This document shows positions 22,612 to 44,801 of a stretch of DNA of 64,000 nucleotides, piece by piece (position 1 is the stretch's first letter; every line of letters starts with the position of its first letter). The position numbers were made by a program, and so were the translations under genes. Under the pieces are notes generated by a model. The model had not been told where the DNA came from and made no database searches. It worked only from the letters and a program-made list of their open reading frames with translations. The stretch comes from Sulfurospirillum sp. UCH001 (GTDB lineage: Bacteria > Campylobacterota > Campylobacteria > Campylobacterales > Sulfurospirillaceae), in assembly GCF_001548035.1 (NCBI RefSeq), contig NZ_AP014723.1:2108001-2172000 (forward strand), written 5' to 3'.

Positions 22612-22647
22612 TGTGTAGGTAAACGCTTGAGAACGTTTACCTACACA
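22612..22647. terminator. Bidirectional hairpin between convergent genes
   Basis: A perfect 14-bp stem (22612-22625 with 22634-22647) and an 8-base loop, starting three bases after the acetyltransferase stop and ending three bases before the PEBP stop. Flanking T tracts are short; stem length suggests it serves both genes. Confidence 0.75.
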
Positions 22648-32188: not shown

Positions 32189-34912
32189 TTATAAGCTTTT
32201 AAGAAGCTCAACACCATCATTTTGCAAATAGCAAATATAGGCAACTACAGGTAAATCATAAATCTTGGAAAGTGCTTCTTGATAAAGCTTCACTTGCGTT
32301 TGATGCTTTGCACTCTGTTTTTTTGAGCTTTTATAGTCGATCACAATGATTTTATCGGGGAACTCCAACAAAAGATCAATCTGCTTACGCTCTTTTTGAT
32401 AAATAAGCGGTTGCTCTTTGTAGATTTTCGCTCCTTGGATCAAATCTAGAAAAGGTTTACAAGAGATCAGTTTTTCACCTCGTTGATAAATCGCTTGCAT
32501 CGTTGATTCATCCAACAAAGGTGCAAAACGGTTTTGAAGAGCAATGTATGCCCTTTTTAGGGCTTCTTCATCAAATGTATCGAGCATTTCTAATAAGTAA
32601 TGCTGTGCGATTCCAAAGGTAACGGAAGCTATTTCAGCGCTCTCCTCTTCATCTTCTGGTGTACTCGCAACCTCTTGAGCACCATAACGTCTTGGCTGAA
32701 AGAGGCGCATTGTAGTTGAAAGTGAAGGCACCTCTTTGGAAGCAATACTAATCGCTCCTCGCTCCAATGTGCTAAGGTCTAACATTTCAAAGGCACTGCT
32801 TTGTGTTTTAGCGCATACAAAAAGTGATCTTTTGGCTCTGGTAAATGCAACATAAAGAGCATTGAGTCTATCTTCATACATCAAAACACTCTCTTGCTCT
32901 TTGGCTTTTGCATAAACGCTATCTACCGCTTCTCTGCCTGCCATCGTAAGATAAAGCCCTTTAATGTCTACCTCATCATAGCTAAATAAAAGCGTATCAC
33001 TGCGGTTATTGTCGCGACTTAAACGATCTGCTAAGATGACATGCTCGAACTCAAGTCCTTTAGACTTATGCACCGTAAGAATGCGCAATCCATCGCTATC
33101 TTCACTTTTCGCTTCGTCACTGAGTTCATCCATCGCAAATAAAAAGCTCTCGATCTCTTCATAGCGACTTGCTACTTCCAAAAAGTTCAGCACATCTACG
33201 CTTCCATCAAAAAGTTGGTACGTTTTGATAATTTTTTCGACCAATACAAGTGGTGTTGCATCTAAATCCCAACCACTCTTTGAAAGTGGGGTGTCCCATG
33301 ACATTCCGCACAATACAAGAAATTCTGCCTTGTAAAGTTCGTCTCCAAAATAAAGGTACTTCATCAAAGCAATAATCGCTTTAATAGAGCGAAGTTCAAT
33401 CAATTTGAGGGTTGCTTCAAGTCGTACATGAACTCCTGTAAATTGCTCTTGTACTAACTCTTTAAAGACTTTGGCGTCTTTATTTGTATGCACCAAAAGA
33501 GCTATATCTTTAGGCTTTACGCCTTCTTTAAACAGTAAAGCAATCGCATCTAATACAGAAGGCTCAATGGATTCTTCTATGCGTACATTGATGTAACCCT
33601 CACCTGTAGCTTTAGCGACTTTTTGTGGCTCATAACCTTTAATCTTGCCTGTAAAAATTTCATTGACGAAAGTAACAATCTGTTCAGTGCTACGATAGTT
33701 TGTATCAAGCGCATTGACATCTAAATGCAAGCTTTTTTTGGCATACCCAAACAACTCTTTTGCACCACCACGAAATCGGTAAATCGACTGCTTCACATCG
33801 CCTACAAAAAAGAGTGTTTTAAAGTCTTTCACACCGCGTCCTGAGCGTATTTCCTCAATGAGAGGTAAAAGAATTTGATACTGCACAATGCTGGTGTCTT
33901 GAAATTCATCAATGAGCAGATGTTCTATTACACCATCTAAGCGAAAGTAGAGGAAATCTTTACTGATTTCTTGACGTAAAAGCGTATAAAGAAGATTCGT
34001 GACATCATCAAAACGAAGTTCGCCATACTCACCCATCAAACCTCTAAGGCTCTCATCGTAAATCGCAAACAGTTTACCTAGCTTCCCTAAGAAATAGGCT
34101 TCTTTGGCATTGACGTGTTCATTGAGAGCACTTTTGAGTTCTCTAAGCAGCGTATCGGTTGTTTCATTGGCATATTTTTTATAGTCCCAATAACCAAAAT
34201 CTTCACGCTCAAGATATTTTTTAGACAATAACTCAGCTAGTGTCTCTGCTTTGAGTGTCGCCATACCTCTTGTGGAGAGTCCACTTTGCTCAAAGTACTC
34301 TCTGATGCGTCCCAAAATATCTAAACACGGTTGCAGGGATGGATAATGCCCTTCATCTAGGGTACTGATATCTAGCTCTGATTTTTTTTGATAGAGCATA
34401 TTCAGTAAACTAAACAGATCTCCTAGTTTTTTATCTTCGGTAATACTAAAAGCAATGAGCGTATAGTAGAGATTTTTACGTTTACACTCTTGTATAAAAC
34501 GCTCCACAAGCTCCTCGTCCAGCCCATTTTGTCCTACTCTAAAATCAGGTTGCAACCCTACATGCAAAGCAAAATGGCGTAAAATCAAAGAGAAAAAAGA
34601 GTCTAACGTTGAAATTTTAATATCTGCTTGAAGCAAGGTTTGCATGACACGCTCTTTTTCAGCGAGCAATGTCTCTTTTGATTTTCCTGTTTGTAAAGAG
34701 ATCGCACTTAACTCGTCTTTACTCTCCAAATGTTTGAGCGTTTCAAAAATACGTGTTTTCATCTCCGCCGCAGACTTGTTGGTAAAGGTCAATGCAACAA
34801 TCTTTTGAGGATTTGCCCCCATAAATAAAAGGGAGAGATAACGCACACTCAAAGCAAACGTCTTACCGCTTCCTGCACTCGCTTCTAAGGCTAAATAAGG
34901 GCTAAGATTCAT
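32189..34912 (-). CDS. addA: AddA/RecB-like helicase-nuclease subunit
   Basis: A 907-aa UvrD-type helicase for double-strand-break end processing. Walker A ASAGSGKT is at residues 11-18, motif Ia is VALTFTNKSAAEMKTRIFE, motif II DEFQDTS near 325, motif VI YVAFTRAKRSLFV near 700. A C-terminal PD-(D/E)XK nuclease (LLLEFPDKIIVIDYKSSKK) follows. The ATG at 34910-34912 overlaps the upstream addB stop (ATGA), and the P-loop position agrees with this start; an earlier in-frame ATG is inside addB. Shorter than Bacillus AddA (about 1230 aa), as in Helicobacter and Campylobacter. Symbol by analogy. Confidence 0.88.
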   Translation of the reverse strand: MNLSPYLALEASAGSGKTFALSVRYLSLLFMGANPQKIVALTFTNKSAAEMKTRIFETLKHLESKDELSAISLQTGKSKETLLAEKERVMQTLLQADIKISTLDSFFSLILRHFALHVGLQPDFRVGQNGLDEELVERFIQECKRKNLYYTLIAFSITEDKKLGDLFSLLNMLYQKKSELDISTLDEGHYPSLQPCLDILGRIREYFEQSGLSTRGMATLKAETLAELLSKKYLEREDFGYWDYKKYANETTDTLLRELKSALNEHVNAKEAYFLGKLGKLFAIYDESLRGLMGEYGELRFDDVTNLLYTLLRQEISKDFLYFRLDGVIEHLLIDEFQDTSIVQYQILLPLIEEIRSGRGVKDFKTLFFVGDVKQSIYRFRGGAKELFGYAKKSLHLDVNALDTNYRSTEQIVTFVNEIFTGKIKGYEPQKVAKATGEGYINVRIEESIEPSVLDAIALLFKEGVKPKDIALLVHTNKDAKVFKELVQEQFTGVHVRLEATLKLIELRSIKAIIALMKYLYFGDELYKAEFLVLCGMSWDTPLSKSGWDLDATPLVLVEKIIKTYQLFDGSVDVLNFLEVASRYEEIESFLFAMDELSDEAKSEDSDGLRILTVHKSKGLEFEHVILADRLSRDNNRSDTLLFSYDEVDIKGLYLTMAGREAVDSVYAKAKEQESVLMYEDRLNALYVAFTRAKRSLFVCAKTQSSAFEMLDLSTLERGAISIASKEVPSLSTTMRLFQPRRYGAQEVASTPEDEEESAEIASVTFGIAQHYLLEMLDTFDEEALKRAYIALQNRFAPLLDESTMQAIYQRGEKLISCKPFLDLIQGAKIYKEQPLIYQKERKQIDLLLEFPDKIIVIDYKSSKKQSAKHQTQVKLYQEALSKIYDLPVVAYICYLQNDGVELLKSL

Positions 34913-37257
34913 ATCTGCTCCTCTCTTCCACACAGCTCAACATAAGGACAGACACGACAATGTTTTATCTCATCACACAGTTCATAACCATTAATCGGTT
35001 TTGATAACTCTTGCAATTTCATAGCTAAAAGTGCTTTTTTCTCTTCCAAAAAATTCTCTTCGATCAAAACGCCCTCTTTTAGGTCGTAATAGTACACACC
35101 CTTCACACGTCCTAACGTATTTGCAATCAATGCGTAAAAGGCTAATTGAAAATCAACGGTACTCTCCAGTGTGCGCTCACTTGTTGTTGGTACTTTCCCA
35201 CTTTTATAATCAATAACGAACAGTTCACCCTCTTTTTCATCAATGCGGTCCATTTGCCCTTCTAGCATAAATCCTTCATACGCAACTTTGTGTACAAACT
35301 CTTTTTTAGTGACACGGAAACCTTCTTCATATCGTGCGACTTCATTATGTATAAAAGGCTTTAGCTTTTGAAGCCACACATCGACAAAATAGCCCCATAC
35401 TTCATGCTTGTTTTGCTCTTTTAACAACATTTCGATTTTCGCAGAGAGCTTTTTTTCTTCCCTTAGAGCTTCATCACATATTGCATCTTCCAATACTTTG
35501 TGTAATGCTACTCCAATGGTTTGCTCATCAATCGTATTGCTTGGCATTTTTGCATCTTTCAGTCTTGCAATGTAGCGAAAGTAAAACTGGCGCTTACAAC
35601 TTAAAAGTGTTTTTAACTTTGTAGCAGAGAGTGGAAATGCTTTGAGATCATAGGGTGCATCAATAAATGCTTGCGAGAAGATGCTTATGGATGGCATAAC
35701 ATCAAATAAAAGAGGCTGTAACACTTTTTCATCTGCCATCATGGTGGTATTAAATCCTAATTCATCTAAAAAACGTGAAGGCATACTGGTCTCATTTTTC
35801 ACAAACGCAATGGCGATTTTTTGAGCCTTAGAGAAAAGTTGGTGGTAATAATAACGCTGCAAATTTTCACGATCTCTTTTCGTTGGAAGCCCCGCTTGTG
35901 CACGTACGGCAGATGAAAGAAAAAGGTCTTTTTGAGAACGTTTAGGCACAAACTCATCATTAAAATCAACAACAATGACCCCTTTATACACCACACCTCT
36001 GGTTTCAAGCACTCCTAAAACAGTTACTTTCCCACCTCTAACATCATCTTGACTCATCGCTGCAAGACGATTGAGGAACAGTTTTACAACCTGTTCAAAA
36101 CGAAGCGCAGGAGCGTGTTTTAAAAAATGGGTAAATGCAAAAAAAGCCTCTTGAAAAAGAGAGTTTTGCTGCTCTTTGACATCGCATGCAAGCAATGTCC
36201 CAAAAAATTCCATAGCCCTTTCACAAGGAATTTTTTGATGCCACAGCTCTTTACATACTGCTATCATTTCAGGCTCTATTTTTAGACGAGTAAGGCGAAG
36301 ATGGTCTTCGATCTCGTCATTGCGCATTGCCTTTTCAAGGGCAATGAGTCTTTGATAAAACGAGCTCTGTTTGAGACTGATACCCATCGCAAAGTTGAGA
36401 TTGTGCCATATATCAAAAGGACGAAGAACTTCTGAGAATCGTTCATCTGGTAAAATAACCACAATCTCTTCTGGACTTAGCCCCTCCTCAACAAACTGTG
36501 CAATAGTACTTTGCACATAACTCATTTGTGCAAGACGTGATGAAAAACCATAAACATGCGCATCATGTTTTATACTATTTTGAGGTGTTACCTCTAAAAT
36601 TTCTTTGGTTGAAAAATTGATTTCATACGCGTTGTTTTGTTCTAAATGAATTCCAAGATCAGCAAACAGTAAGACCATTTTTTGGTTATACGCACTGATT
36701 GTAACCTTAATATGTAAAGGAATCAGCTCCGCTATTTTTGTTAAAAGTTCCACTTCAAAACGGCTCAAAAATCCTTCTAAATGAAGGCGAACTGCGCCTA
36801 ATGAGCGGATATACGCACTATTGAGTTCATAAAGCTCTGGAAGAGTGATACGATCATACAATGCCTGCTTAGATAAAAGAGCCTTATAGTGTTTTAAAAG
36901 CGTTTGCAAAACCTCTAAGTGCTCGGCATAGTGTTCATACGTATCAACACACATGAGCGTTTCAAGTGCCACTTTTTCATGGCTAAGTTCTTCAAAAAAT
37001 CGAAAAAGATAGGTAGAATTTTTTAAAAACGTGAAAAACTCACGCTCGATATAAAGAAGTTCAAATTTGGTAAAGCGTGAAGCTTCTTGCATAAGAAGGA
37101 CCCTCATGTCTTCATCGACTAAAGAGTGGTGAGGAACAAGAAGCGCTTTTTGTTCCAGTTCTGCAATCGTAATTGCCTTTGGAAGAAGCGTATTGGCGTC
37201 ACTAAAGGTTTCATAAAAAGAACGCACTGCACGACTGGTTGCAAAAACTTCTAACAT
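34909..37257 (-). CDS. addB: AddB-like PD-(D/E)XK nuclease subunit
   Basis: A 782-aa partner of AddA. The N-terminal two-thirds resembles an inactive helicase-like region. The C-terminal nuclease reads MLEGQMDRIDEKEGELFVIDYKSGKV. Four cysteines fit an AddB-type [4Fe-4S] staple: one in LLSCKRQFYFRYIARLKDA and three in HCRVCPYVELCG at the end. Together AddAB resect DNA ends and load RecA. A -10 TATAAT lies about 30 bases before the ATG (37285-37290), and GAGGAAAA serves as ribosome binding site. AddB and AddA are unlinked in Helicobacter pylori but overlap here. Confidence 0.85.
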   Translation of the reverse strand: MLEVFATSRAVRSFYETFSDANTLLPKAITIAELEQKALLVPHHSLVDEDMRVLLMQEASRFTKFELLYIEREFFTFLKNSTYLFRFFEELSHEKVALETLMCVDTYEHYAEHLEVLQTLLKHYKALLSKQALYDRITLPELYELNSAYIRSLGAVRLHLEGFLSRFEVELLTKIAELIPLHIKVTISAYNQKMVLLFADLGIHLEQNNAYEINFSTKEILEVTPQNSIKHDAHVYGFSSRLAQMSYVQSTIAQFVEEGLSPEEIVVILPDERFSEVLRPFDIWHNLNFAMGISLKQSSFYQRLIALEKAMRNDEIEDHLRLTRLKIEPEMIAVCKELWHQKIPCERAMEFFGTLLACDVKEQQNSLFQEAFFAFTHFLKHAPALRFEQVVKLFLNRLAAMSQDDVRGGKVTVLGVLETRGVVYKGVIVVDFNDEFVPKRSQKDLFLSSAVRAQAGLPTKRDRENLQRYYYHQLFSKAQKIAIAFVKNETSMPSRFLDELGFNTTMMADEKVLQPLLFDVMPSISIFSQAFIDAPYDLKAFPLSATKLKTLLSCKRQFYFRYIARLKDAKMPSNTIDEQTIGVALHKVLEDAICDEALREEKKLSAKIEMLLKEQNKHEVWGYFVDVWLQKLKPFIHNEVARYEEGFRVTKKEFVHKVAYEGFMLEGQMDRIDEKEGELFVIDYKSGKVPTTSERTLESTVDFQLAFYALIANTLGRVKGVYYYDLKEGVLIEENFLEEKKALLAMKLQELSKPINGYELCDEIKHCRVCPYVELCGREEQI

Positions 37258-37388: not shown

Positions 37389-37883
37389 CTATTGTGCTGC
37401 GTAGGCTTCGTTTTTATGATAACCTTTAAATTCGCCAAGGTCTATTTTGCTAAGAATTTGCCAACGACCTGGTTTATTAATCTCAAAAGGTCCAAACGTA
37501 TAATTGCCATTTTCTACATGAGAAGGTTTCAATTGTTTGTTCTCTTTATTGCTATCAGGACGAGAAAGCATAAGCATTACATTCGCATTGTTGACAGGCT
37601 GACCGCTTTTATCCGTAAGATGCAATGTAAGACTATTCTCTCCAATCATAAATTTTTCTGTTGAATACGCAAGATCAAACTTTGCATTAAATTTTTCTTG
37701 AAGCTCAATGATTTCATTGATAGAGTGGTCAACTTTTTGGTATTTCTCCATATAAAAAGTATCCATTTCAACGGGGTTATCCAATGCGATTTTGATGGTA
37801 AAACCGCATGCAACAACACAGCCAAGGATCATTCCGATAACAACATGAGGGTAGTACGTATGTTCGCTTTTTGTTTTAGCCAC
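37389..37883 (-). CDS. FixH-family protein
   Basis: A 164-aa protein with one N-terminal membrane helix (VVIGMILGCVVACGFTIKIALDNP) and a periplasmic beta-rich domain: SLTLHLTDKSGQPVNNANVMLMLSRPD, then ENGNYTFGPFEINKPGRWQIL. FixH/CcoH proteins assist maturation or stability of cbb3 oxidase. The start is GTG within the end of the previous gene (8-base overlap), with AAGGAT upstream. Last gene of the cco cluster, consistent with an oxidase-assembly role. Confidence 0.85.
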   Translation of the reverse strand: MAKTKSEHTYYPHVVIGMILGCVVACGFTIKIALDNPVEMDTFYMEKYQKVDHSINEIIELQEKFNAKFDLAYSTEKFMIGENSLTLHLTDKSGQPVNNANVMLMLSRPDSNKENKQLKPSHVENGNYTFGPFEINKPGRWQILSKIDLGEFKGYHKNEAYAAQ

Positions 37884-38481
37884 GACTTTTTATCCTTCTG
37901 TAAATAATTAATACAATAACAATAGCCATAAAACTATAGAGTAAAACTCGCACTAAATTAATGGTTGTTTTGTTGGCACTACCAATGGCACTTTCTAACT
38001 CTATTTTGCGGTATTGCGCTATCTCCTCGACTAACTCTGCGTATCCGTTCAGGAGCGCTGGGCTCACACCAACTTCTTTTTTCTTAGAGGTCAATAGAGG
38101 AATAATCGTTCCTTTCCAAGGGAGTGGAGAAAGTAATGCTTCTCTATCAAACTCTTTCTCTAATCCAGGAGATGTATAAACATCCACTTTCTGTTCAGCT
38201 TGAAAAAGAGTTAAAAGTGCGTAAGGAGGCGTAAGGTCTTTGGCAAAGTTTTGCTCAAACGCAAGAATGTTTTCATTGCCATTTTTTTTAGCAATTAAGA
38301 TAACTTTGACACCACTTTTAGCAAAAAGTTCTTGTCCCATCTCTTCAATTTTTTGGGCAGTCTTCTCTTCTAAGATGTCATCGTAAACTACAAAATCCTT
38401 GGCAAAAACCAATACGGGAAGCAATGAAATCAAGCAAAGAAGCCATAGCTTCTTTGCTTGTATATGTAATAAGGTTTTCAT
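37876..38481 (-). CDS. TPM-like membrane protein in the cbb3 operon
   Basis: A 201-aa protein with a signal or membrane segment (LWLLCLISLLPVLVFAKDF), a periplasmic domain (VYDDILEEKTAQKIEEMGQELFAKSGVKVILIAKK) resembling the first half of a TPM domain, and a C-terminal helix (LVRVLLYSFMAIVIVLIIY). TPM domains are linked to photosystem or membrane-protein repair in other lineages. I do not know its role here; its place between cco genes and fixH suggests assembly or quality control. The ATG overlaps the stop of the 33-aa peptide (TAATG), which fixes this start. Confidence 0.7.
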   Translation of the reverse strand: MKTLLHIQAKKLWLLCLISLLPVLVFAKDFVVYDDILEEKTAQKIEEMGQELFAKSGVKVILIAKKNGNENILAFEQNFAKDLTPPYALLTLFQAEQKVDVYTSPGLEKEFDREALLSPLPWKGTIIPLLTSKKKEVGVSPALLNGYAELVEEIAQYRKIELESAIGSANKTTINLVRVLLYSFMAIVIVLIIYRRIKSRG

Positions 38482-38582
38482 TAACCGATGAACAAATGGT
38501 GTGGGGTCAATACTGCCCACGCTGTAATTGCAGCTATTAGAACTAATCCAAGAGCGATGATTTTATCCATATTTTCAGCCAT
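38481..38582 (-). CDS. 33-residue single-helix membrane peptide
   Basis: A tiny gene that fills the space between DUF4006 and the TPM-like gene. Its 33 residues start MAENMDKIIA, contain one hydrophobic helix (LGLVLIAAITAWAVLT) and end HHLFIG. The stop TAA overlaps the next ATG (TAATG), and AGGGGTAT lies just before its own start at 38580-38582. It is ten bases after the DUF4006 stop. The dense coupling and the helix make a real small protein likely. It could be a small cbb3-associated subunit; this is inference from context. Confidence 0.65.
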   Translation of the reverse strand: MAENMDKIIALGLVLIAAITAWAVLTPHHLFIG

Positions 38583-38592
38583 TCTATACCCC

Positions 38593-38805
38593 TTATTTCA
38601 CTAAAGCTTTTTGATTCGCATTTGCAGCATCTTTCATTTGAAGTGCTTGCGGATCATTAATCTTATAAGGTTTATCAGCAACTGCTTGTTGTGCTTTTAA
38701 TCCAAAGAATGTAAGTACTCCAAGGATAGAAAGCAACAAGACTGTTGCAATCAACATTCCTGTAATGCCATTAAGTGCGAATACGTTTCTATTTGTATTT
38801 TCCAT
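38593..38805 (-). CDS. DUF4006 small membrane protein
   Basis: A 70-aa protein with an N-terminal NVFALNGITGMLIATVLLLSILGVLTFFGLKAQQ helix and a polar tail (KPYKINDPQALQMKD), matching DUF4006, a family I know from Campylobacterota next to ccoP. The ATG at 38803-38805 follows AAGGATTT; an in-frame TTG two codons earlier is less likely. Ten bases downstream of ccoP. Function unknown, probably an accessory of cbb3 oxidase. Confidence 0.85.
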   Translation of the reverse strand: MENTNRNVFALNGITGMLIATVLLLSILGVLTFFGLKAQQAVADKPYKINDPQALQMKDAANANQKALVK

Positions 38806-38815
38806 TGACAAATCC

Positions 38816-39664
38816 TTATTTCGCTAAAGAGCTGACATAAGTGCCAACCGCTGTTTTTTGAACATTGGTTAAACGTCCATCATTAAATTTAGGCATGTTA
38901 CCAATCATTCCTTTTTTGCCCGTTCCTAGAACATTGACAACAAATTTTGCATCGCCATAAACACTTAAGTCAGGAGCACTACCCGCCATACCTTTACCGT
39001 CTTCGCCATGACATGCAGCACATGTTGCCCAAAGTGCTTTACCCGTCTCAACAAGCGTTGGGTTTTTGCTCTTTTTAACAACAGATATTTCTTGCATAAC
39101 ATACGCTGCAACAGCTTTTGCGCTATCCGCATCAAGTAATCCAGCAGGCATTTCGCCAAGAGGATAGTCAGCGCCTTTTGAGCCATTTAAAATAGCTGCA
39201 ACGATAGCTTCTTCGTTACCCCATTTTGAAAGGTTAAGCGCTTTTCCGTTCATACCATCACCAGTAACACCATGACATGGAGCACATTGAACAAGGAACA
39301 CGCCCTCACCCATTGCCATTAATGTTGATTTGTCTGGATTTGCGAATTTGCTCTCAAATTTTGTATTGTAACTTTTTACTTCTTGATTGTACTCACCGAG
39401 CTGTGAATAACTTGCAAGAGGATACCCTGCAAGAAAATACCATGCCGCCCATGCAATCGTTCCAAGAAATGAAAGTGCCCAACCAATAGGAAGAGCATTT
39501 TTATATTCACCAATACCATCCCAGTTCTCTTTTGCTAATTCTCCACTCGCTTTGTCGGTTTTCATTTGTTTCATATACTTACCAACAACAAAAAACGTGA
39601 GAATTAAAATTGCTGCTGCGCCAAGCAATGATAACGCGTTTACATTGTCATTCAGCCAATTCAT
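38816..39664 (-). CDS. ccoP: cbb3-type cytochrome c oxidase subunit III (diheme)
   Basis: A 282-aa membrane-anchored cytochrome c that feeds electrons into the oxidase. It has an N-terminal CcoP helix, a second helix (WALSFLGTIAWAAWYFLAGYP), then two cytochrome c domains with CAPCH at 127-131 and CAACH at 215-219, and Met ligands in GEMPAG and GNMPKF. GAGGAGC precedes the ATG. Fourth in the ccoNOQP order and translationally close to ccoQ. Confidence 0.97.
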   Translation of the reverse strand: MNWLNDNVNALSLLGAAAILILTFFVVGKYMKQMKTDKASGELAKENWDGIGEYKNALPIGWALSFLGTIAWAAWYFLAGYPLASYSQLGEYNQEVKSYNTKFESKFANPDKSTLMAMGEGVFLVQCAPCHGVTGDGMNGKALNLSKWGNEEAIVAAILNGSKGADYPLGEMPAGLLDADSAKAVAAYVMQEISVVKKSKNPTLVETGKALWATCAACHGEDGKGMAGSAPDLSVYGDAKFVVNVLGTGKKGMIGNMPKFNDGRLTNVQKTAVGTYVSSLAK

Positions 39665-39677
39665 TTATCGCTCCTCT

Positions 39678-39887
39678 TTATTCTTTCTCTTTGTTTGATG
39701 GAGTACGGGTCTCAATTGGAGCATCATCAATATTATCGTGTAATGCTATATTGCCATACTGCTCATAGTTGCGTGTACCTTTTTTTTCAGCCCTGTAAAG
39801 ATGGTACAAATAACTGTACATAACAATCACTAAAAAAACTGTTGCTGCCACATAAGCATACGCTTGAATCTCTCTAATTGTGTCCAT
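39678..39887 (-). CDS. ccoQ: cbb3 oxidase small subunit CcoQ
   Basis: A 69-aa subunit with one membrane helix (AYAYVAATVFLVIVMYSYLYHLYRAEK) and a charged tail, as CcoQ should have. The ATG at 39885-39887 is preferred; an in-frame GTG five codons upstream nearly abuts ccoO. CcoQ stabilises the binding of CcoP to the core CcoNO complex. Confidence 0.9.
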   Translation of the reverse strand: MDTIREIQAYAYVAATVFLVIVMYSYLYHLYRAEKKGTRNYEQYGNIALHDNIDDAPIETRTPSNKEKE

Positions 39888-39903: not shown

Positions 39904-40569
39904 TTACTTTAAGCTATTGAGATAAGCAATTAATGCAACAATCTCTTTAATCTCACCGCGCTTAAATGCCTCTTTTACCTCTTGGCTCTTCATATCTGCA
40001 ACAATAGCAGCTGCTTGTTCCATTGCAACTTTTTTTGCTTCTTCATGTGTACCAAGTTTTGGCATATCTGGTTGATCATAAGGCGCATTAAACACTTTTT
40101 TTACAGTCAATGCTTCTGCATATGCTGTATCAATGTCGGCTGTATTTTTAAACATATGTTTGTACGCTGGCATAATAGAACCTGGTACTACGCTTACTGG
40201 ATCTAGCATATGATATTCATGCCAGTCGCTTGTTCTATAGTTACCAACTCTCATTAAGTCTGGTCCTGTTCTTTTTGAACCCCAGAGGAATGGTCTATCA
40301 TAAGCATACTCACCACTTAAAGAATACATACCGTAACGGTCTGTCTCAGATTTGAATGGACGAATAAGTTGTGAATGACATGCATTACAGCTGTCTTTGA
40401 TATAGACTTGACGACCTGCTAACTCAAGCACTGTGTAAGGTTTTGTTCCTACAACGGGACGTGCTGTTTCCATGAAGTCAGGTAAAATTGTTACAACACC
40501 TGCATACGCAATAACTAAAAATACACCTACCGCAAAAAAGAATGGGTTTCTCTCTAACCAATGAAACAT
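39904..40569 (-). CDS. ccoO: cbb3-type cytochrome c oxidase subunit II (monoheme)
   Basis: A 221-aa membrane-anchored cytochrome c with heme motif CNACH at 61-65, followed by SQLIRPFKSETDRYG and the conserved GSKRTGPDLMRVG. One N-terminal helix (FFFAVGVFLVIAYAGVVTI). The Met ligand is in GSIMPAYKHM. GGAGGAT before the ATG. It hands electrons from CcoP to the catalytic subunit. Confidence 0.97.
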   Translation of the reverse strand: MFHWLERNPFFFAVGVFLVIAYAGVVTILPDFMETARPVVGTKPYTVLELAGRQVYIKDSCNACHSQLIRPFKSETDRYGMYSLSGEYAYDRPFLWGSKRTGPDLMRVGNYRTSDWHEYHMLDPVSVVPGSIMPAYKHMFKNTADIDTAYAEALTVKKVFNAPYDQPDMPKLGTHEEAKKVAMEQAAAIVADMKSQEVKEAFKRGEIKEIVALIAYLNSLK

Positions 40570-40584
40570 AATCCTATCCTCCTT

Positions 40585-42051
40585 TTACGCTGCCATAGGT
40601 GAAGCATTTTGAGGCTCAGACTCAATTGCTTTACTTGCAGTCATTGTTTTATACATATTGTAAGTGAACATGAAGAAACCGATTAGGTACAATAAACCAC
40701 CTGTTGCACGAATCGCATAGTATGGGATAAGAACTGTTACCGTATCGATAAATGAGTACGCTAGGTTACCAAATTGGTCTGTTGCTCTCCACATCATACC
40801 TTGAGTGATACCCGCAATCCACATACTTGAGAAGTACAAGACGATACCCGTTGTTTGAATCCAGAATTGTGCTTCGATCAATTTTTTACTATAGATTTCA
40901 CGTTTAAACATACGAGGAGCCATGTGGAACAATGCTGCCATAGTCATAAAGCCTACCCAGCCTAATGTACCATCATGAACGTGTCCAGGAATCCAGTCTG
41001 TAAAGTGCGCAAGAGCATTAACAGATTTGATAGATAAGATTGGACCTTCAAGGGTACTGAACATATAGAATGTTGAAGCAAAAATCATCAATTTAACCAA
41101 CGGATTCTCTTTGAGTTGACCCCATTGTCCTTTCATCGTAAGCAAGATGTTAATCGCACTACCCCATGATGGAAGAATCAAGATAATTGAGAAAATAGAA
41201 CCCATTGTTTGAACCCAGTCAGGCACTGTAGAGTAGATAAGGTGGTGTCCACCTGCCCAAAGGTAAACGAACATTAGACCCCAGAAAGAGAGGAGTGAAA
41301 GTTTATAAGAGTAAACTGCTTGACCAGATTCTTTTGGTAAGAAGTAATAGATCATCGCAATAATAGGCACTGTGAAAACAAATGCCACCGCGTTGTGACC
41401 GTACCACCATTGAACCATAGCATCATTTGTTCCTGCATACATAGATACAGAGTGATACCACTTTCCAGTTCCTGCAATAAAGTAGGTTGGGACTTCCATA
41501 TTGTTGAATAGATACAACATAGCAACACCCAAAAAGGTTGCAATAAAATACCACATAGAGATATAGAGTGTTTTTTCACGTCTGATACCAATGAGACCAA
41601 AAATACTAAAACCCCAAAGTACCCAAACGACAACAACAAGAATGTCCAAAGGCCACTCAAGCTCTGCATACTCTTTAGAAGTACCAATACCCATAAAAAG
41701 GGTAACAACAGCAATTGTCATTAGAATCATGTAAAGCCAAAAATGAAGCTTTCCAACGATCATTAAAAACGGTGACTCTGCCATCGAAACCTTGAGTACT
41801 CTTTGCCCAATATAGTACCATGCTGCAAAGATTCCGCTCAGTAAGAATCCAAAAATTACTCCTGATGTGTGTAATGGTCTTAAACGACTGTAAGTACCAT
41901 ATTCACCCGCCAAGTAATTCAACTCAGGGAAAGCCATTTGATAGGCGATAACCACACCTATTAACATACCAACGATTCCAAAAAGGATCGCTGCGTAGGT
42001 AAAACATTTGGCTACTGAATAGTCATAGTTCAATGCATCTCTAGCCTGCAT
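40585..42051 (-). CDS. ccoN: cbb3-type cytochrome c oxidase subunit I (catalytic)
   Basis: A 488-aa heme-copper oxidase catalytic subunit that reduces O2 with high affinity and pumps protons. Visible ligands: HTSGVIFGF (low-spin heme His), WWYGHNAVAFVFT (Cu-B His), GGHHLIYSTVPDW (Cu-B His pair) and PGHVHDGTLGWVGF (heme His pair). The ATG at 42049-42051 follows GGAGGAATTG; an in-frame TTG just upstream lies within that site. First gene of the operon. TATAAT on the minus strand at 42104-42109 is the likely -10. Confidence 0.98.
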   Translation of the reverse strand: MQARDALNYDYSVAKCFTYAAILFGIVGMLIGVVIAYQMAFPELNYLAGEYGTYSRLRPLHTSGVIFGFLLSGIFAAWYYIGQRVLKVSMAESPFLMIVGKLHFWLYMILMTIAVVTLFMGIGTSKEYAELEWPLDILVVVVWVLWGFSIFGLIGIRREKTLYISMWYFIATFLGVAMLYLFNNMEVPTYFIAGTGKWYHSVSMYAGTNDAMVQWWYGHNAVAFVFTVPIIAMIYYFLPKESGQAVYSYKLSLLSFWGLMFVYLWAGGHHLIYSTVPDWVQTMGSIFSIILILPSWGSAINILLTMKGQWGQLKENPLVKLMIFASTFYMFSTLEGPILSIKSVNALAHFTDWIPGHVHDGTLGWVGFMTMAALFHMAPRMFKREIYSKKLIEAQFWIQTTGIVLYFSSMWIAGITQGMMWRATDQFGNLAYSFIDTVTVLIPYYAIRATGGLLYLIGFFMFTYNMYKTMTASKAIESEPQNASPMAA

Positions 42052-42193: not shown

Positions 42194-42221
42194 ACAAGAA
42201 CGATGAAACTATCGTTCTTGT
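42194..42221 (-). terminator. Terminator hairpin overlapping the response-regulator stop
   Basis: A perfect 11-bp stem (42194-42204/42211-42221) with a 6-base loop. The stop TAG of the response-regulator gene is 42209-42211, at the loop edge. The minus-strand flank reads TTCTCCTCCTTTTTTAATTTTTT, a discontinuous T tract, and the structure separates this operon from ccoN. Confidence 0.75.
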
Positions 42222-42889: not shown

Positions 42890-44124
42890 TGCTCTTCCTT
42901 TTCACTCTTTAACTGCGGTATTGTAATGGTAAAACAGACTCCATCGTTACAATTTTTTGCAACAATAAATCCTTTCATGCTATTGTTAATAATCATCTTA
43001 CTCATATACAGCCCCAGTCCTGTCCCAGCACTCGCATGCTTTGTCGTAAAATAAGGCTCAAAAATCTTATCTAGAATAGCTTCGTCAATCCCACCAGCAT
43101 TATCGCAGACTTTAATTATAGCATCTCCTTGCTCAGATGTGTCAATTTCAATATAAATTAATCTATTTTTTATTTTATTGTGGCAAAACGCATCAATTGT
43201 ATTATTGATTAAATTGATTAGTACTTGAGAAAATTCATTAAAGTACCCCTTGATATGAGCATCTACTTTTACATCAAGACGTATTTCAACATCATTTTTT
43301 TCTAAAGTTCCTCGCATAATATCCATGGCTTCTTGTGCAACTGCACTGAGTGCAAAATCTTCACTTTGTCGATCAGGGCTAAAAAAATGACGAAAATCTT
43401 CAATCGTTTCAGACATCTTAGAAATAATTTTCTTAGCATGGGTATAGCTATCTTCAAACTCAACATCTTTACCATCGTTTTGACGACGATAGAGTTTGTT
43501 CATCTTATAAAGCGTAATGTTAAGTTCTGAAAGCGGTTGCCTCCACTGATGCGCAATATTTGCGATCATTTCACCCATAGAAGCTAAACGTGATTGTTGA
43601 AATAAAAATCGATCTTTTTCGCGATTTTTTTCAACTTCTTCTTTAACACGCTCTTCAAGTGTCTGATTGAGTTCTGTTAATGCTTTTGTTTGCTCTTTGA
43701 CTCTTTGTTCGAGTGTTGCGTTCAACTCCTCAAGCTCTTCATCTTTAGTAATCAACGCTTCACTTAAACGCACACTCTCTGTTACATCGTAGCGAATAGC
43801 GATGAACTCTTCTATATCTCCATTTTCATCTAAAATAGGAAATACCGTTGTGTTAACATAAAAGGTACTACCATCTTTCGCAAGGTTTTTAACGGTTGAT
43901 TTATAAGTTTTTTTTTGAAGAATTGTTTGCCAAAGTTGTCTAAATGTTGACGCAGGAACATCAGGGTGTCTTACAATATTATGATTTTTACCAACAAGTT
44001 CCTCTTTAGTATAACCTGATATTTTGCAAAACTCATCATTGACAAACGTAATAATGCCAAAGATATCCGTTTTAGAAATAATATTGCTACTTTCAATAGC
44101 ACTTTGATACTGCTCTAACTTCAT
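42886..44124 (-). CDS. PAS-domain sensor histidine kinase
   Basis: A 412-aa cytoplasmic sensor. An N-terminal PAS domain (about 10-120, DIFGIITFVNDEFCKISGYTKEELVGKNH) is followed by a long coiled coil (120-180), an H-box ANIAHQWRQPLSELN with His192, and an HATPase domain (LINLINNTIDAF, VCDNAGGI, GTGLGLYMSK). No membrane helix is present, so it senses a cytoplasmic signal such as redox or a metabolite. Overlaps both neighbours by four bases. If it is the BumS ortholog, phosphatase activity may dominate. Confidence 0.93.
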   Translation of the reverse strand: MKLEQYQSAIESSNIISKTDIFGIITFVNDEFCKISGYTKEELVGKNHNIVRHPDVPASTFRQLWQTILQKKTYKSTVKNLAKDGSTFYVNTTVFPILDENGDIEEFIAIRYDVTESVRLSEALITKDEELEELNATLEQRVKEQTKALTELNQTLEERVKEEVEKNREKDRFLFQQSRLASMGEMIANIAHQWRQPLSELNITLYKMNKLYRRQNDGKDVEFEDSYTHAKKIISKMSETIEDFRHFFSPDRQSEDFALSAVAQEAMDIMRGTLEKNDVEIRLDVKVDAHIKGYFNEFSQVLINLINNTIDAFCHNKIKNRLIYIEIDTSEQGDAIIKVCDNAGGIDEAILDKIFEPYFTTKHASAGTGLGLYMSKMIINNSMKGFIVAKNCNDGVCFTITIPQLKSEKEEQ

Positions 44125-44801
44125 GCGATTGCCGCACTATAACCAAGATACGCCATATAAACGCCATAACCTACTATAATTAAAGAAGCTATTTTAATCA
44201 TCACTTCTCTAAACCCACTTCCTTTGAGGAAGCCAACGACAAAACCAAGTCCAAGCATCGCTGGCATAGTTGCTAAACCAAAAAGCAACATTGTAATGCC
44301 TCCGCTAAACCAAGAACCAGAAGTTGCAGCTGCTGCTAAAAAGAAATAGACTAACCCGCATGGTAAAAAGCCATTTAAAAGCCCTAAGCCATAGAAACTG
44401 GTGAGAGATTTGGAATGAATCAATTTAGAAAAAAGTGTTTTGATGGTCGGATTAAAGGCAATGGTTGATTCTAAAGAGGTTAAAAATTTAATTTTCCCCA
44501 TCATAGATAATCCCATTAGAACCATTAAAAGACCAATAACAAAATAGAAATAACCATTGAGTTTAGCGGAGAAGGTAAAAATACTTCCCAGTGCACCAAA
44601 AAGGATTCCTAAAAATATATATGAACTGATTCTTCCTAAATTGTAGCTCAAATGGGCAAAAAACTGAAAGAGTGAAGAGGTGGAGGTATCAATTTTGGCG
44701 CTACTATACGCCATTACAAAACCTCCACACATACCGATGCAGTGCCCTAAACTTCCTAAGAATGCAACACTGATGATTGCTGATATATCAATAGCGTTTA
44801 T
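44121..44801 (-). CDS. TauE/SafE-like (DsbD-type) membrane protein, unusual start
   Basis: A membrane protein of about 226 aa of the SafE/UreH-like class: SLGHCIGMCGGFVMAYSSAK at the N-terminus (the paired cysteines are a likely metal or thiol site), and GFLPCGLVYFFLAAAATSGS with PCG in mid-protein. Such genes sit near cbb3 oxidase copper-maturation genes. The first ATG in frame (44730-44732) cuts into the cysteine motif, so coding must begin earlier. No ATG, GTG or TTG exists between the carA stop and that point. GGAG (44809-44812) sits seven bases before an ATA codon (44799-44801), which I take as the start. Confidence 0.7.
   Translation of the reverse strand: MNAIDISAIISVAFLGSLGHCIGMCGGFVMAYSSAKIDTSTSSLFQFFAHLSYNLGRISSYIFLGILFGALGSIFTFSAKLNGYFYFVIGLLMVLMGLSMMGKIKFLTSLESTIAFNPTIKTLFSKLIHSKSLTSFYGLGLLNGFLPCGLVYFFLAAAATSGSWFSGGITMLLFGLATMPAMLGLGFVVGFLKGSGFREVMIKIASLIIVGYGVYMAYLGYSAAIA

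Follow-up and report, generated by a model that had tools for sequence, protein, structure and literature searches.

Small genes of the cbb3 oxidase operon have been characterized in Campylobacter jejuni, in which Garg et al. (2021; PMC8267372) deleted the genes located between ccoP and ccoH. These genes were given the names ccoX (Cj1486, DUF4006), ccoY (Cj1485), and ccoZ (Cj1484, TPM) (PMC8267372). In that organism, ccoX and ccoH were essential for oxidase activity, and ccoY and ccoZ were important, the activity being lowered without either of them; Cj1485 consists of 33 residues with a central helix (PMC8267372). In the literature on CcoX, CcoY, and CcoZ in connection with cbb3 oxidases, this was the only paper found to treat these proteins. 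Comparable small proteins are known from other terminal oxidases. CcoM of the Pseudomonas stutzeri cbb3 oxidase comprises 36 aa (PMC10433244) and resembles CcoY in being a single-helix protein of similar length that is tied to a cbb3 oxidase (PMC8267372). The two are alike in kind by description. No PDB chain was matched in sequence searches with the peptide described below or with its profile (E up to 10). CioY is a 34-aa component of the terminal oxidase CioAB of C. jejuni; CioY and CydX of Escherichia coli, which may likewise be likened to CcoY by description, differ in belonging to the bd-type oxidase family (PMC11955535).

RNA structures associated with such operons have also been described. 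HRC-8-4 of Rhodobacterales is a terminator-like RNA stem found mostly between ccoNOQP and the maturation operon ccoGHIS (PMC8632094), and internal operon terminators have been reported in Methanococcus maripaludis (PMC10450193). The hairpin described here differs from HRC-8-4, which lies between operons and has well-conserved loop bases (PMC8632094), in that it resides inside the coding sequence of ccoZ. M. maripaludis belongs to another domain of life (PMC10450193), and the role of the ccoZ hairpin is one that we infer. The reading that we propose for the present locus, with a probability of about 0.78, is that CcoY acts as an accessory subunit or assembly factor of the oxidase and that a hairpin located after ccoY shapes the expression of ccoZ-ccoH.

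In the window, i.e. the whole 64-kb stretch of DNA analysed, the oxidase genes are arranged on the minus strand in the order ccoN, ccoO, ccoQ, ccoP, ccoX, ccoY, ccoZ, and ccoH (ccoNOQP-XYZ-H). The genes for the catalytic subunit I (ccoN; 40585-42051) and for CcoO (39904-40569) were identified by matches to PF00115 (E 3.7e-106) and PF02433 (E 2.9e-86), respectively. Matches above cut-off were obtained for ccoQ (39678-39887) with PF05545 and TIGR02736 and for ccoP (38816-39664) with PF14715 and PF13442, and the match of ccoP to TIGR00782 (153.7 bits) lies below the cut-off of 179.95. The next gene, ccoX (38593-38805; 70 aa), has the same position as Cj1486, and its product matches PF13179 (DUF4006) with 98.7 bits (cut-off 22; E 1.7e-28 for a query started one residue upstream). 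It is followed by ccoY (38481-38582), which encodes the 33-aa peptide MAENMDKIIALGLVLIAAITAWAVLTPHHLFIG and was assigned by its homology to Cj1485, its pN/pS value, and its conserved slot. The last two genes are ccoZ (37876-38481), encoding a TPM-domain membrane protein of 201 aa, and ccoH (37389-37883), which starts with GTG and whose FixH family product matches PF05751 (E 4.1e-11; 43.5 bits, cut-off 23). The DUF4006 protein, the TPM-like protein, and the FixH protein are thus CcoX, CcoZ, and CcoH, respectively. A ribosome-binding site for ccoY, AAGGGG, was read from the minus-strand sequence at 38589-38594, where it overlaps the stop codon of ccoX, and comparable sequences are present upstream of ccoY-like ORFs in related loci. 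The stop codon TAA of ccoY overlaps the start codon ATG of ccoZ in a TAATG junction. The layout of ccoP, DUF4006, 33-aa ORF, TPM-like gene, and FixH gene given in an earlier note on this DNA, together with its coordinates, the separate ribosome-binding site of the peptide, and the TAATG junction, was thus confirmed.

Several features were observed in the surroundings of the operon. Downstream of ccoH (32189-37257), there are a PD-(D/E)XK nuclease gene and a UvrD-helicase/nuclease gene, which we take to be AddB/AddA-like. The FixH-like ORF of an Arcobacter-type locus (L032) is followed by a 782-aa frame whose start is similar, and the synteny of nuclease genes downstream of ccoH may be old. A strong 12-bp inverted repeat (42194-42221) overlaps the end of a response-regulator gene upstream of ccoN, and a membrane gene of the DsbD_2 family (PF13386) is found at 44121-44732.

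The product of ccoY has a hydrophobic core of ~18 residues and, as read from the sequence, one predicted central helix, in agreement with the single-helix peptide described in the earlier note. The ORF was recovered in 23 of the 24 genomes of the genus searched, with its own genome counted. In the ccoY frame, the mean pN/pS was 0.23 (19 distinct sequences of the genus, 29 codons). The two remaining forward frames gave 0.80 and 2.98 and contain stops in 20/20 and 16/20 sequences, respectively; this sample covers 20 of the 23 loci of the genus, three having been missed by the search pattern. A search for DUF4006 relatives in named bacterial and archaeal genomes yielded 55 loci, 54 of which are labelled as Campylobacterota or its subgroups and one as Proteobacteria, the latter being 87% identical to the query. 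In 54 of these 55 loci, a matching ORF of 29-34 aa with a hydrophobic core lies close behind DUF4006, and the remaining locus ends 25 nt past DUF4006; conservation of the frame in relatives, which the earlier note had named as a check on the peptide, is therefore seen in nearly all named loci. A chance reading frame could be argued for on the grounds that the ORF has only 33 codons and that its peptide was matched neither by Pfam at E up to 1 nor, over the cut-off, by NCBIfam. A pilin-like NCBIfam match (E 0.0011; 18.6 bits, cut-off 40) was rejected because it was below the cut-off and out of context. Since the frame, the slot, and the sequence are all conserved, however, a chance origin can practically be dismissed, and ccoY is a genuine gene on which purifying selection acts.

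To place the peptide relative to Cj1485, the primer parts printed in PMC8267372 were compared with locus L123, in which four of the five were found exactly and one with two mismatches. The primers fix the frame of Cj1485 in L123 as a 33-aa ORF ending in LHIG. The peptide of the window and this C. jejuni-type Cj1485 sequence align end to end without gaps with 18 of 33 residues identical (55%; E 2e-11 in a single comparison), and because of these shared residues the peptide is identified, by sequence, as CcoY, the orthologue of Cj1485. Both have 33 residues, a central helix, and the slot between ccoX and ccoZ; they come from different genera, and the tails differ, being TPHHLFIG in the window and TVNHLHIG in C. 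jejuni. The earlier note had called the peptide overlooked. It is indeed a real small protein, but it has not been overlooked everywhere, given that its orthologue Cj1485c is annotated and named ccoY. Cj1485/CcoY does not appear in the available main text, supplements aside, of a C. jejuni Ribo-seq paper (PMC11955535).

The distribution of the peptide was surveyed with a profile (A1) made from 45 peptides, i.e. that of the window and 44 from the named loci. A1 matched 324 of 397 genomes of the phylum at E up to 1. The 20 genomes listed among the 73 without a match all belong to one family (f2), in which the listed A1 matches are also mostly weak. DUF4006 was found in 381 of the 397 genomes and was over the cut-off in 380, the 381st (G063) containing a weak match inside a 725-aa frame. 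FixO was checked in the 17 genomes without a sound DUF4006 match, and 16 of them had no FixO match; in the 17th (G245), the fetched locus ends a few bases past ccoP, as at a contig end. In this 397-genome sample, the absence of ccoX is therefore confined to genomes that lack the oxidase and to a contig end.

Thirty chosen genomes, mostly with a weak or no peptide match, were read individually. In all 22 f2 loci read (between L132 and L160), an ORF of 33 to 41 aa with a single helix lies directly behind DUF4006 (ORF starts were trimmed in L148, L158, and L159). Its products mostly carry LEK close to the N-terminal end as well as a proline ahead of an L/F-rich C-terminal tail. When aligned to A1 with hhalign, the f2 profile gave 78.5% (E 1.7e-5), a score reached by 0/300 shuffles of full columns and 2/300 shuffles of the core; the reversed f2 profile gave 0.7%, and the CcoQ and CcoX profiles gave 1.2 and 12.2%, respectively. 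By these profile comparisons, the f2 ORF is a diverged form of CcoY, different in sequence but related. Family f2 is probably Helicobacteraceae. The literature searches gave no name for this form of the peptide, and they gave no paper naming two of HP0147 to HP0150. In two loci of another family, f9 (L134 and L139), a gene that is presumably CcoG-like, as judged by motif, is located directly behind ccoX, and ccoY follows about 1.5 kb further on; in a third f9 genome (G076), DUF4006 and the peptide are adjacent. The suggestion of the earlier note that the set is an assembly or stability module specific to one lineage was thus upheld in part. The C. jejuni mutants indicate that the set has a part in the assembly or the activity of the oxidase, but the lineage specificity was not borne out, since the peptide is widespread in the order and the probable Helicobacteraceae family has a diverged form of it.

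CcoZ matches PF04536 (TPM) just below the cut-off (E 0.0011; 19.4 bits against 22.1). An AlphaFold model built from 40 sequences (pLDDT 79.1, pTM 0.65) was compared by Foldseek, which returned TPM-fold proteins first, namely AtTLP18.3 (3pvh; E 1.3e-5, TMq 0.53), with Psb32 (8c7i) and BA41 (5anp) among the other top matches. Modelling thus predicts that CcoZ has a TPM fold. A PDB sequence search with the CcoZ profile yielded no TPM chain, and such searches with CcoX and CcoZ gave no useful relatives. Weaker Foldseek matches were chains of mycobacterial supercomplexes (8ovc, 6hwh, 8hcr, and 6adq; E 0.0098 to 0.062), including 8ovc_V, 6hwh_O, and 6adq_J, which we take to be MSMEG_4692 and which had probabilities of 0.99-1.00 and TMq values of 0.42-0.44 with weak E-values of 0.0098-0.062. 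Cj1484 has been likened to MSMEG_4692 of the mycobacterial supercomplex (PMC8267372), and the weak matches of our model tentatively agree with this. CcoZ, through its TPM domain, may have a link to the bc complex.

In this context, CcoY would be a single-helix inner-membrane protein working alongside CcoX and CcoZ. A short N-terminal segment bearing lysine, the helix, and the conserved tail suggest an N-in/C-out orientation, which is probable although the charge signals are weak. The tail, TP[NH]HLF[IV]G in most relatives and FDSxRVFVG-like in the Arcobacter type, would accordingly be placed at the periplasmic face, near the periplasmic haem domains. CcoY may serve as an accessory subunit or as an assembly or stability factor, and a one-helix accessory subunit is the most likely; both its binding to the oxidase and its stoichiometry are matters of inference. 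It is also conceivable, though rather unlikely, that CcoY is no subunit but an assembly chaperone, departing once the oxidase has matured. A gel band from C. jejuni contained subunits of the oxidase and the bc complex with CcoH, CcoX, and CcoZ, and CcoY was not among the nine putative supercomplex proteins listed from tryptic mass spectrometry in the available text (PMC8267372). This absence would fit a chaperone, as would the biogenesis role of CcoH in other bacteria (PMC8267372), but both CcoH and CcoX turned up together with the oxidase (PMC8267372), and membrane proteins of such small size can easily escape trypsin-based methods, as did CcoQ, which is likewise missing from the nine proteins (PMC8267372).

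In a terminator scan, a minus-strand hairpin (13-bp stem, 4-nt loop; 38460-38431) was picked up within the opening codons of ccoZ. The 64-kb window has only one other perfect 13-bp stem with a loop of 3-8, located at 22613. Among the 55 ORF starts of the window, one 75-nt start was as stable as that of ccoZ counted from its ATG; the most stable of the 55 is the 75-nt start of the DsbD_2 family gene (-23.2). An Rfam scan of the window gave nothing at gathering score. The hairpin folds in 21 of 21 distinct sequences of the genus, in which 93.0% of the alignment cells are paired and 8 of the 13 pairs have changed on both sides. The covariation score was 0.408, compared with 0.243 in shuffles, 0/500 of which were as high (5/500 when further pair types were allowed), and slid versions scored much lower; these figures are not probabilities, since the sequences share ancestry and one of them supplied the structure.

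For the order-wide survey, the 113 nt beginning at the ccoY stop were examined in 151 loci (127 distinct), with five further DUF4006 loci left unplaced by the filter. Of the 127 regions, 107 contain a hairpin that begins no more than 40 nt past this stop and has a stability of -9 kcal/mol or lower; the median start is at 20 nt, and the hairpin sequences differ widely between families. In about half of all distinct regions (64 of 127), such a stem is followed by at least five T in the next nine bases, which gives them the look of intrinsic terminators. Among the 20 regions in which the finder detected no hairpin, L009, L011, and L074 form a bulged hairpin, which was seen by RNAfold in L074 itself and in near-identical sequences. 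Synonymous-codon shuffles at the ccoZ start were made for 124 distinct loci, three more having been left out as they contain no ccoZ-length ORF. The median z was -2.23, with 72 loci below -2, and no shuffle of 200 was as stable as the real start in 27 loci and at most two in 50. After removal of five loci whose assigned ccoZ start lies far downstream, the median z of the remaining 119 was -2.38. The signal was modest in many loci, weak in f2 (median z -1.43; 6/22 below -2), and absent in several loci, such as L025 (Sulfurospirillaceae; z 0.5) and L047 (-0.4). Fifteen Campylobacter-type loci picked by eye gave a median z of -2.20, with 8 below -2. With 60 shuffles for each gene start of the named loci, the median z was -2.90 for ccoZ (50 starts), and the control starts of ccoO (36), ccoP (38), ccoX (46), and ccoH (44) gave 0.73, -0.09, 0.10, and 0.28, respectively. 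Terminator-like hairpins were observed at 24 of the 50 ccoZ starts, against 2.3 expected, and at 0, 1, 1, and 2 starts of ccoO, ccoP, ccoX, and ccoH, against 1.2, 0.4, 0.2, and 0.9 expected. Hairpins thus recur across the order beyond the synonymous-codon expectation and covary within the genus.

Such a hairpin in the ccoZ start would reduce or shape the expression of ccoZ-ccoH relative to ccoNOQPXY. In the simplest reading, it sets ccoNOQPXY above ccoZH, either as a partial terminator or as a stem protecting the 3' end; termination and 3'-end protection are both readings of the sequence. We lean, by a modest degree, towards an attenuator inside a coding sequence that is common to the order Campylobacterales. 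In such an attenuator, the ccoZ start would encode both a membrane segment and a terminator-like hairpin, by which the oxidase part (ccoNOQPXY) is split from the maturation/supercomplex part (ccoZH), with read-through possibly governed by translational coupling between ccoY and ccoZ, as ribosomes restarting at ccoZ could keep the hairpin open. The U tract of the window hairpin, ATTTCATTGC, is weak, although this copy still passes the terminator scan, and protection or processing is for this reason a real alternative. The hairpin would then be a translation or mRNA-stability element, which either protects the processed 3' end of ccoNOQPXY or tunes initiation at ccoZ. The tails are consistent with this less favoured but plausible explanation, as only 64 of the 107 hairpin regions have at least five T in the nine bases past the stem, and three named Sulfurimonas loci (L038, L040, and L045) have 2-3 T after it. 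However, the excess of terminator-like copies at the ccoZ starts argues for termination, and so does L049, in which a hairpin is retained behind ccoY and no plus-strand ORF of 90 aa follows for 2.3 kb; a hairpin without ccoZ is what one would expect of a terminator of the oxidase transcript, although its tail in L049 is poor in T by count.

The proximity of ccoY and the hairpin also bears on whether ccoY is mainly a translated leader controlling ccoZ/ccoH, with the peptide itself mattering less. Ribosomes would stop at ccoY and restart at the overlapping ATG of ccoZ, thereby keeping the hairpin open; when uncoupled, the hairpin would form and transcription would stop. The TAATG overlap and the short distance between the ccoY stop and the hairpin fit such a mechanism. 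Complementation of the C. jejuni ccoY mutant is not reported in the available text (PMC8267372), so that a polar effect of the ccoY deletion on ccoZ/ccoH expression is possible; the deletion cassette was chosen to limit polar effects (PMC8267372). Nevertheless, the amino-acid sequence of ccoY is under purifying selection, its tail is conserved in most relatives, which a pure leader would not need, and the two f9 loci have the CcoG-like gene between ccoX and the peptide, all of which makes a mere leader quite improbable. CcoY as an accessory subunit or assembly factor, combined with a hairpin shaping ccoZ-ccoH expression, is the reading that we retain.

The hairpin is the part of this locus that looks new, and the peptide is a further member of a named family. 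Among the literature matches listed for attenuation in ccoNOQP operons or for intragenic terminators, some available only in part, none concerned a hairpin in ccoZ. An apparently overlooked peptide thus becomes an identified oxidase component that is widespread in an order of mostly low-oxygen bacteria, and CcoY is extended to a further family, probably Helicobacteraceae. If true, the proposed role of the hairpin would offer a simple account of how these bacteria make much oxidase and less maturation protein. The ccoZ start would be a single DNA stretch under both protein and RNA constraint, and deletions near ccoY may alter the expression of ccoZ and ccoH.
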